DNA of 64,000 bases from Methanohalophilus sp. RSK (GTDB lineage: Archaea > Halobacteriota > Methanosarcinia > Methanosarcinales > Methanosarcinaceae), in the NCBI RefSeq assembly GCF_003722075.1, contig NZ_RDSK01000015.1, positions 62,001-126,000 of the forward strand, given 5' to 3'. The stretch's first letter is position 1; every line of letters begins with the position of its first letter. The notes under the pieces were generated by a model. It was not told where the DNA came from, ran no database searches, and saw nothing but the letters and a program-made list of their open reading frames with translations. The translations under genes were made by a program, and so were the position numbers. This document shows positions 587 through 50,991 of the stretch, one piece after another.

Positions 587-2005
587 TTATAAGCACTTTT
601 GTCTCTTTACATTAGGCCCCTCACAGGTATCCTGCACAACAAATCCCTTTTGCACAATTTTATCCCTTAAAGCATCTGCTGTTTCCCAATCCCTGTCATT
701 TCGGGCCTGCTCACGGATCTTTACAAGCTCCATGATCTCTTCTGGCACTTCCTCTCCTTCTTGTGCAAAAAGGCCAAAGGTATCTGCAAACTTCCTGTAG
801 AGGGAAAGAAGGTTTTCAAGTACATCCTTATTTCTGCCGGCTTCAAGGTACTGGTTGGAAATACGGGATAGTTCATGATAAACTGCAATTGCTTTCGGGA
901 TGTTCATATCATCTTCCAGAGCATTCCTGAAGTCATCTTCAAGATTGCCAGGCAGACCTATCATTTCCTGATCAGTAGGATATTCATTATCATCTGCACT
1001 CTTTATAGCGAACTCCAGATTTTCCAGTGTTTCCCTGAGCTTGAAATAGCTATTTTGTGCATTCCGGGCAAAGGAGTCGGAAAAATCCAGTTTCTTCCTG
1101 TAATGCACGGACATAAACATAAAGCGCACAACTTCCCCACCATATTTGTCAACCAGTTCGGGGAGAGTGAAAACATTGCCCTTTGACTTACTCATTTTCT
1201 CGCCGTCAACTATCAGGTGTTCCCCGTGTATCCAGTACCTCACAAAGGGTTTTCCTGTAGCCCCTTCGGACTGGGCAATTTCATTTTCATGATGGGGAAA
1301 TATCAGGTCCACTCCACCTGTATGAATATCAAGGGAAGGTCCAAAATGATTCATTGACATTACCGAGCATTCCGTATGCCATCCGGGCCTGATCTTACCC
1401 CAGGGACTTTCATAGTAAATACCCCTTTCAATCTCTTCCTGTGTGGATGCTTTCAGCAAAACAAAATCACGGGGATTATCCTTGTCGTATTCATCGACAT
1501 CAACCGATGCTCCCATCTTAATTGAATTGAAATCCAGTTTTGAAAGCTTACCATACTCCGGGAAAGCCGAAATCCTGTAATACACCGAGCCCTCTTTTTC
1601 ATAGGCAAGCCCTTTTTCCATCAGCATTTGTGCCAGCTCTATCATTCCATCCACATTTTCAGTGGCCCGGGGATAAGCAGAGGCTATTTTTATGTTTAGC
1701 ATATCAAGTCCGCAGAAAAATTCTTCCGTATATTTTTCTGTAAATTCTTTCAGGGATATGCCCGCTTTCTTTGAATCCCGGATCGTCTTATCGTCGATAT
1801 CCGTTATGTTCATTACAAGATTCACAGAATAGCCCAAATACTCCAGGATACGTACCAGATTATCGGTCATCAAAAAGGTTCGATAATTGCCTATATGCGG
1901 AATATTGTACACCGTCGGACCACAGGCATATATTGTAACTTCATCCTCTTTTAAAGGCTTGAAAACTTCCTTTTTCCTTGTTAAAGTATTATACAATCGT
2001 AACAT
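587..2005 (-). CDS. cysS: cysteinyl-tRNA synthetase
   Basis: Class I aminoacyl-tRNA synthetase that charges tRNA-Cys with cysteine in the cytoplasm. The 472-residue length is normal for the family. The N-terminal zinc Cys (YACGPTVYN, Cys28), the HIGN form of the HIGH motif (37-40), the WHTECS zinc segment and the KMSKSKGN loop (near residue 270) are all present, followed by the DALR and C-terminal anticodon-binding region. Many methanogens also make Cys-tRNA by the SepRS/SepCysS route; this gene shows that the direct route exists here. It lies downstream of rtcA on the same strand with a 60-bp gap. Confidence 0.97.
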
Positions 2006-3121: not shown

Positions 3122-3369
3122 AGAAATTAATCATACTTCTTTACTTAATATTTTACCTGAACGCTCCTATAATTATCTTCAGGATTTTCCTATAAATATC
3201 CACTACAGGCTGTTAGAAACAACCTACTCCTTCTATTCCCTTTGCCTGCTTTGTCCTCAACTCTCCCCTTATATTTTCATAGTATCTGGTGGTGACGGCA
3301 GGAACTAAGGGGCTTTCTTCTTCCAGGACTTTGCAGGATAATAATACAAAATATACAGAAAAACACAGG

Positions 3370-3488
3370 AGAAATGAGAGCAAGGATTTCAATCCATTAC
3401 TCTCATCGTACCACCACTCCATATCAGCCAAACCCCCGTTTCAGGCTGAATACAAGGTGAGAGTCATGCTGCTAAACTCCCCCTTACC
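3370..3488 (-). ncRNA. candidate structured small RNA, copy A
   Basis: This intergenic stretch folds, read on the minus strand, into three hairpins. P1 pairs 3476-3481 with 3459-3464 (GGGAGU/ACUCUC), with an outer GGU/ACC extension. P2 pairs 3444-3449 with 3424-3429, is extended by GTTT/AAAC, and has a CCCC/GGGG tetraloop. P3 pairs 3400-3406 with 3374-3380, with an inner GGAT/ATCC stem. Between P2 and P3 lies the linker GGAGTGGTGGTAC (plus-strand 3408-3420), which recurs in the same place in copy B at 12.4 kb. One P1 pair is G-U on the minus strand but A-C on the plus strand, which favours minus-strand RNA. A TATA box lies about 30 nt upstream and U-rich sequence follows P3. No convincing protein is encoded here. 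Not identified with any known family. Confidence 0.55.
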
Positions 3489-3506
3489 AAAATTGGTTGA
3501 TAGATT

Positions 3507-3522
3507 TCTATATATAATAAAT
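3507..3522 (-). promoter_or_regulatory. TATA box for candidate small RNA A
   Basis: On the minus strand the sequence reads TTATTATATATAGA, a strong archaeal TATA element. It is centred about 25-35 nt upstream of the first stem of candidate RNA A, the expected distance to a start site. It lies just beyond the 3' end of the VTT-family gene. Confidence 0.5.
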
Positions 3523-3594
3523 GGATAGAAATAGATGGAGTGCCTTAAAAAACATGTGCTATTAAAATTTTTAAACCAATATAATCCAGAGAAA

Positions 3595-12166: not shown

Positions 12167-12354
12167 TCTCCCAGTTAAGTTTTATATTGGATCGTGTTTT
12201 TCATACTACACTTTTTTCCTACCAGACATCAATGTACCATAATAAGTGCAATACTGTAATTTTCTTACACACAAAACACAAAAACAGCTTAGGCCCTGAC
12301 TTTTAGAAGAATATTAACTGAATGATTAGTAGATATTTAGAGTAAAATATGAAG

Positions 12355-12482
12355 TAGTGGGAACATCGCTGCTATAATGTTCCCACTTTTGTACCACCAC
12401 TCCTTTCAACCGTTCCTTATCAACGGTTGGCTTGACTTATAGGAGAGTTTTTTTCGTAACCCCCCATCCACTCTCTTAATTA
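12355..12482 (-). ncRNA. candidate structured small RNA, copy B
   Basis: Second copy of the element at 3.4 kb, in the gap between convergent genes. Minus-strand hairpins: P1 GAGAGU (12475-12470) with ACUCUC (12448-12443); P2 CAACCGUU with AACGGUUG (12429-12422 with 12414-12407); linker GGAGTGGTGGTAC (plus 12391-12403); P3 with 11 perfect pairs (12356-12366 with 12377-12387). The stems differ in sequence from copy A but stay paired, while the linker and its spacing to P2 (3 nt) and P1 (38-39 nt) are kept, as expected for a structured RNA. An AT-rich TATA-like element lies about 30 nt upstream (12498-12512). The strand is inferred. Confidence 0.55.
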
Positions 12483-12598
12483 TAGGATGTTGTCCCTAAA
12501 TTAAATAAATTACGGGTAACTTTTATCAGTATGTTATTGGACAGTTGATAATTATTCCATATCTACAATTTTCTAATATCAAAACATGTAAAGGAAAG

Positions 12599-49614: not shown

Positions 49615-50991
49615 TCAGAATACCAGACCGAAGTCTTCGAGTTTCTTCTTTGCCCCGTCGTATACCTTGACGTACTCGTCAGTTGGTGTAACGGTTGCAA
49701 CATCATAGCATTCCTGGAATGTCTTGCCTGCAGGTGCATTGGCATAGTCATTCTCGTAGCTTGCTACGAGTTTATCCAGAATCTGGTTGACAGTATTGAT
49801 ATCCATACCAGCGGTTGCACGTGCGACTTCTCCCATCATACGGGCTTCCATACCGGTTGTCTTGTCAGTGATTACACCCTTGGCAGCTGCAACACCGGAC
49901 AGGATCTCACGGCCTGATGCGGTATCTGTCATGGACTGAGCTGCAGCCTCAAGCAGGCACATCTCGGTGCATGGACCGGCACATGGATAGTACTGGTTAC
50001 CGGACATAAGGTCTGTGAACTCGGAAATGGTGGCACATGCCCAACCTGCGATCATAAGGGTCTCACGAGTGTTGGTGGATCCCCAGCGGATGTGCACAGG
50101 ACCGTCAAGATGCCAGCTGGCACTGCTCATGACCATGGAGTTGAGGTGAGTTGCAACATCGACGATGGTTGTTTCCTCAACACCGCCGGCGTAACCACCA
50201 AAGATTGGCATCTGTTCATCCATGATGATGTCACTGTTACCCTTGTAGTGGGCAATGACAGCGATTGCGTCAAGATCAATCTTGAGTTCGTTCAACTGGG
50301 AGACTTCGTGGCTGTCGTTGGAGTTCATACCACCGACACAGTCTGCACCGATGTTACCCTGTGCGGACAGGGAGGATTCAGGGCCCTAAACTGCCATACC
50401 CGGACGACCTGCCATGGAAGCGGCGGTCCTGATCTGGCGGGTTTCGGATTTTGATGCAAGAACCTCGTAGGGACTGCCAGGGATCGGGGATTTACCACGG
50501 GCAGAGGTCATTACACCGTTGACGATTGTGTCACATTCTTTCTCAAGAGCGTAACTCATATGCACAGGCATGAAGACATCTTCAGAAATTGGGGAACCGG
50601 TTGGACCACCCTGGACAATTGGTTTCCTCTTGTCGCCTACTTCACGTTTTTTCATGTAAACTGCGTCACGACCGGTACCAAGCTGGAATTGCCTTTGCGG
50701 ATTGTTGATTGCATCCCAGATCTCGTCCTCGGTGTATTTGACGATACGATGAGTGTCGGTACACCAGATACCACACTCAAGAAGCATCTCGAAACCGGCT
50801 TTGAACAGCCTTTCCATCTGGTCCTTGTCGGTTGGAACGAATTCCTTGCCAAAGTCAAGGTTGTATTTCTGCTTCAGTTCCATTGCCTTCACTGGGATGG
50901 TCATTAAATCCCAGTCGTCCTGGGTGCATTTCTCACCGGTCTGGGCACGGTCATAAAAATCATAGCAAGTTACGGATTTGTTAAATGTCAT
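49615..50991 (-). CDS. mtmB: monomethylamine methyltransferase with pyrrolysine
   Basis: Moves the methyl group of monomethylamine to the corrinoid protein MtmC. The frame carries one in-frame TAG at 50386-50388, codon 202, inside the invariant GRPGM-A-V-Pyl-GPESSLSAQGN; the reading then continues unbroken to TGA. The full length of 458 residues equals that of known MtmB, and the whole sequence is highly conserved (KPIVQGGPTGSPISEDVFMP, HWHLDGP-type SSASWHLDGPVHIRW). Pyl202 binds the amine in the barrel centre. mtmC lies directly upstream (17-bp gap). Annotation tools usually split this gene at the TAG. Confidence 0.98.

Follow-up and report, generated by a model that had tools for sequence, protein, structure and literature searches.

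Paralogous three-hairpin small RNAs in Methanohalophilus with a conserved linker complementary to the loop of a second, more widespread hairpin RNA family: a possible case of RNA sponging

The window analysed here is a stretch of 64,000 nucleotides from Methanohalophilus sp. RSK (contig NZ_RDSK01000015.1, positions 62,001 to 126,000). Two of its intergenic regions carry related structured elements on the minus strand: copy A, whose neighbours encode a VTT-domain protein and an RNA 3'-phosphate cyclase, and copy B, whose neighbours encode a PRC-barrel protein and an alpha/beta hydrolase. A sequence-only reading had described them as two copies of a small RNA with a common layout, in which a TATA-like box precedes a hairpin P1, a hairpin P2, an identical linker and a hairpin P3. 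The order P1, P2, linker, P3 was recovered at both sites, and GGAGTGGTGGTAC occurs exactly at 3408-3420 and 12391-12403, both on the minus strand. P1 is present as described but is the weakest helix in this genome's own copy B, although congeners show a clean stem of ~8-9 bp at that place. Better limits than those first proposed are about 3493-3356 for A (formerly 3370-3488) and 12476-12340 for B (formerly 12355-12482). In the list below, R1 denotes a covariance model trained on A and a third paralogue, C, alone, and R2 a broader model of the same family, referred to as family 1.

3557..3577, minus strand: AT-rich element upstream of A, possible regulator site (upstream alignment of classes A, C, D, E and G)
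3508..3517, minus strand: TATA-like box of A, at a fixed distance before the model start across the family
3356..3493, minus strand: copy A, predicted small RNA of ~138 nt, class A (R1 E=1.2e-34, as a seed member; R2 E=1.7e-25)
3459..3481, minus strand: P1 of A (stem GGGAGTT/GACTCTC, against GGAACTT/AAGTTCC in class C)
3424..3449, minus strand: P2 of A (in 7/7 modelled pairs both partners vary among family members)
3406..3420, minus strand: linker GGAGTGGTGGTACGA of A, read from the sequence
3405-3417, minus strand: linker core GTGGTGGTACGAT of A, exact complement of the family-2 loop (see below)
3375..3405, minus strand: P3 of A (outer helix paired in 97.6% of cells over the members)
3359..3374, minus strand: 3' tail TTTCTCCTGTGTTTTT of A, likely terminator, near-invariant in classes A and C
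12500..12509, minus strand: TATA-like box TTTATTTAAT of B
12340..12476, minus strand: copy B, predicted small RNA, class B (R1, not trained on B, E=7e-7)
12443..12475, minus strand: P1 of B, GAGAG..CTCTC, a clean stem in congeners
12407..12429, minus strand: P2 of B
12389..12403, minus strand: linker GGAGTGGTGGTACAA of B, its last positions unlike other classes
12356..12387, minus strand: P3 of B, with a stem unlike every other class
12344..12355, minus strand: T-rich 3' tail of B

A GCAGC loop motif lies in P1 of classes A, C and E (in A, at 3459-3481, minus strand) but in P3 of class B (12356-12387, minus strand). Elsewhere in the window, the sole Rfam match at gathering level is PYLIS_1, the pyrrolysine insertion sequence element, at 50289-50388 on the minus strand.

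Two 13-nt matches in 64 kb are insufficient to prove a family, and homology was therefore tested independently. R1 recovered B, and besides its seed A found nothing else in the window up to E=10, which confirms the kinship of the two copies. A DNA search with A identified the third paralogue, C, in this genome, together with orthologues of A and C in four congeners. Orthologues of A in four congeners share 91-96% identity and those of B, likewise in four congeners, 76-82%, while paralogues share ~75% or less. Searches with R1 and R2 established that A and B are two of five family-1 paralogues in this genome (with C, E and G) and that Methanohalophilus holds seven classes, A to G; the structured family first described is thus real, but its copy number is five rather than two. 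Class D was found in five congeners and not in this genome, and class F in a single genome (G006). The additional members in this genome are:

C13:198929-199069: class C
C4:16316-16450: class E
L045:1126-1266: class G, close to E

By the same two models, family 1 was undetected in two genomes placed in Methanohalophilus (G001 and G005), and outside the genus no match was convincing by score. Weak R1 or R2 matches beyond the genus (L031-L035, L067, L083, L085-L087) appear unrelated, a pattern match on a Candidatus Sabulitectum contig is not backed by any model, and a locus with a 13/14 linker match (L065) is without the hairpins.

The structure of the RNA was assessed on 31 distinct sequences, in which 94.5% of P2 and P3 cells are paired and both sides change in 17 of 19 pairs. 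Covariation claimed for these helices from the two copies alone was borne out on 4 of 5 measures (0/500 shuffles each) and against all slid controls; the covariation score was 0.609 against 0.201 for shuffled alignments (0/500) and ≤0.151 for slid controls, values that are flattered by an alignment fitted to these helices and by a shuffle test inflated by the kinship of the sequences. The same covariation can nevertheless be seen by eye between classes whose stems are wholly different, as in P2 with CAACCG/CGGTTG in B, CAGTCG/CGACTG in D and AGCCGAA/TTCGGCT in C. In folding tests A has a z-score of -3.2 and B one of -4.2, within a range of -1.9 to -7.4 over 34 family matches. G-U cells outnumber A-C cells by 49 to 8, which identifies the minus strand as the RNA, as the sequence-only reading had held. 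The TATA-like box that it had also reported lies ~24-25 nt before the model start on the sense side in 29 of 30 members, against 7 of 30 on the other strand; its position places the start of A near 3493 and gives an RNA of ~138 nt, so that family-1 RNAs are predicted to carry their own promoter. The AT-rich element upstream of this box, common to classes A, C, D, E and G, suggests common regulation. The linker is the most conserved part of the family, and its GGAG can pair with CUCC of the 3' tail in A and C, with similar pairings visible in other classes.

The genes around the copies have little in common. C is neighboured by genes for a winged-helix protein and a CMD protein, D by one for a PolX-like protein, and both E and G lie between genes for a VWA protein and an SMR transporter. 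Because neighbours and orientations differ among A, B, C, D and E/G, with no gene in common, a cis-acting leader or riboswitch was rejected; the lack of a consistent cis arrangement fits trans-acting RNAs. A coding role was likewise discarded, since the reading frame is broken by indels between orthologues. As anticipated, the element matches no Rfam family: Rfam 15 gave nothing above gathering threshold for A or B and nothing credible at permissive thresholds. Comparison with Methanosarcina mazei sRNA154, also an intergenic structured small RNA from a methanogen of the same archaeal family, showed other stems; four sRNA154 loci from four Methanosarcina genomes gave no R2 match at E<=10 and lack the linker motif, and identity with sRNA154 was rejected. 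Taken on this evidence, family 1 is almost certainly a real family of small RNAs.

The partner of the linker was sought through its complement. Over 14 nt and with at most one mismatch, this complement occurs only at family-1 loci and one unrelated site. The 10-mer TCGTACCACC has 39 exact sites in five genomes, a count not above that of a reversed-pattern control, so that the case rests on where the matches fall: 13 are family 1 read backwards, three (at L105 and at the orthologous loci L122 and L123) apparently lie within genes, and 23 belong to long intergenic hairpins with a large loop holding AUCGUACCACCACC. These hairpins form a second small RNA family (family 2), whose invariant loop is the linker complement AUCGUACCACCAC; the complementarity runs over as many as 13 nt, and it falls on those columns that are invariant in family 2. 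The sequence-only reading had suggested that the linker pairs with mRNAs near ribosome sites. This is unsupported as it was put, and since exact complements of the linker core lie almost only in the family-2 loop, pairing between two small RNAs is the better reading.

Methanohalophilus genomes each have some four or more copies of family 2, this genome having four (C2:37392, C5:19935, C13:188704 and C17:81562), and relatives occur across the Methanosarcinaceae. The covariance model of family 2, R3, which includes the loop and thereby favours finding loops that match, gave matches in each of the eight Methanohalophilus genomes scanned and, within the Methanosarcinaceae, in several further genera; beyond the genus the score comes largely from the loop, and the stem and the TATA-like box recur there too. 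The outer stem covaries (0.365 against 0.239 shuffled, 0/500). G-U and A-C counts (23:23) carry no strand signal, and the antisense strand folds better on average; with the wobble counts uninformative, strand assignment rests on the TATA-like boxes: on the CGUACCACC strand, 28 of 32 loci have one ~30 nt ahead of the stem, against 2 of 32 for the opposite strand. Family-2 loci gave nothing credible in Rfam. The loop, UCAUAUCGUACCACCA, is usually little changed in other genera, and because it is kept in genera without convincing family 1, it must also serve another partner. G001 and G005, in which family 1 was undetected, both have family 2; in G005 the loop is altered to CAUACCACCACC, a single case that hints at a change of the two families together.

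Several further features of family 2 were recorded. Tandem copies occur in G067 and others, and those of one G067 locus (L192, 1138-1958, minus strand) are ~363 nt apart; GTGGTGGTA recurs in the spacer between them and is a complement of the family-2 loop, equalled by 7/500 shuffles. A diverged family-2-like hairpin (L042, 775-885, plus strand, E=3.6e-4) precedes class D by several hundred nucleotides and shares its strand, with weaker matches at the corresponding place in other congeners. A palindrome resembling ATCATAATGAT is found upstream of the TATA-like box in L104, L113, L116, L117 and L192-L197, across genera, and is a possible regulator site.

Duplex predictions gave -28.5 to -28.9 kcal/mol for the linker of A with the family-2 loops of its own genome, over 12-13 consecutive Watson-Crick pairs and with 0 of 200 shuffles as good; A thus has the complementarity to a conserved, exposed segment of another small RNA that is looked for in a sponge. 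With these loops, classes C, D, F and G reach 0-2/200. Copy B of another genome (G007) forms up to 14 consecutive pairs, the B of this genome is moderate (6-13/200), and class E pairs weakly. When whole family-1 and family-2 RNAs are cofolded, the predicted complexes are more stable than the monomers by 1.5 to 15.6 kcal/mol. The TATA-like boxes place the complementary strands in the predicted transcripts of both families, which would probably pair in the cell. The antisense strand of A resembles family 2 weakly (R3 E=0.034), and part of the complementarity could therefore stem from shared ancestry through an inversion, by which one family may have given rise to the other.

In another genus, one locus (L084 of G097, 1501-1627, minus strand) is a possible distant relative of family 1, in which GGAGTGGTGG is flanked by hairpins resembling P2 and P3 and there is a T-rich tail; its score is marginal, most of its genus is without a clear homologue, and its pairing with its own family-2 loop is marginal as well (39/500 shuffles). 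A further candidate (L089, G076) was dismissed, as it does not pair with its family-2 loop (229/500).

The reading we prefer, with a probability of roughly one half, is that family-1 RNAs act on family 2 as sponges or antagonists. Family 1 would consist of stand-alone, multi-copy small RNAs of ~138 nt with three hairpins and a single-stranded linker in common; the linker would base-pair with the invariant loop of the long family-2 hairpin and thereby occupy the loop that family 2 would use on its own targets. On this proposal contact with the common partner is made by the linker alone, which would explain why it is kept among paralogues whose stems drift. Family 2, being far more widespread and keeping its loop without family 1, is taken as the older regulator, with family 1 as sponges at the level of the genus. 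Since GGUGGUACGAUAUGA, complementary to the family-2 loop, looks like a ribosome-binding site with an AUG after it, family 1 may mimic the start region of a target. A slightly less probable extension is an all-RNA network, in which several three-hairpin RNAs with one linker would titrate several long-hairpin RNAs with one exactly complementary loop, the dosage being set via separately regulated copies.

The same linker-loop complementarity would serve equally if control ran in the reverse direction, with family 1 as the regulator and family 2 as its decoy, or if both acted jointly on mRNAs. Family 1 is the more elaborate of the two, and its class-specific loops could contact separate targets; yet the wider distribution of family 2, kept where family 1 was not found, makes this arrangement unlikely. 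Rather unlikely, too, is that the linker is a site for a common protein or the ribosome and that the match to family 2 stems from inversion ancestry instead of pairing in the cell. Protein binding would likewise leave a conserved linker between stems that diverge, the linker's GGAG is Shine-Dalgarno-like, and the weak R3 match to antisense A is compatible with inversion. A pure protein site, however, has no need of an exact complement in a second RNA, and here both complementary segments are kept and the promoter-like boxes put the complementary strands into transcripts.

Archaeal small RNAs such as sRNA154 and sRNA41 do act on mRNAs (PMC5867862), which lends some plausibility to family 1 as a trans-acting RNA whose linker pairs with mRNAs near ribosome-binding sites. 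The distribution of the 14-mer and 10-mer complements described above, the latter in family 2 or at three apparently coding sites, nevertheless renders it quite improbable; indirect control of mRNAs via family 2, or imperfect mRNA pairing by the linker, is possible. Dispersed occurrence in several copies per genome could also be expected of mobile-element remnants or of an intergenic repeat without RNA function. Against such an origin stand the small number of divergent copies with class-specific orthologues in congeners, the covariation with its G-U bias and the TATA-like box at a fixed distance, and an insertion-sequence, REP or MITE end is equally at odds with paralogues so dissimilar. A plasmid search gave no match, and the matches in viral contigs (60 to the linker, 5 to the loop and 13 to the loop complement) are at chance level with no convincing model support, so that this explanation is very improbable indeed.

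Bacterial sponges and anti-sRNAs, such as SroC or AgvB against GcvB, offer the closest parallel to the proposed sponging, as there too one small RNA is complementary to the targeting segment of another. The present case differs in that both sides are multi-copy paralogous families, that the organism is an archaeon and that the sponging is predicted from sequence. A full-text literature search for archaeal sRNA sponges gave only bacterial cases, judged by title. Within the same archaeal family, Methanolobus psychrophilus R15 has nine cold-induced, conserved small RNAs with a 'cold box' (PMC5378194). As far as their description in that source goes, they resemble the present families in being multi-copy and conserved with a common motif upstream of the promoter, and they may be relatives of family 1 or family 2.

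The analysis supports a new small RNA and shows its family to be larger than first described, with a partnership between RNAs better supported than direct pairing with mRNAs. Few archaeal small RNAs have known partners, and here one is predicted from sequence alone, through up to 13 consecutive pairs between the most conserved segments of two families in this genome. If the preferred reading is true, it would represent small RNA sponging in an archaeon, with one whole family set against another, and in family 2 Rfam would be lacking a widespread regulator of methanogens.
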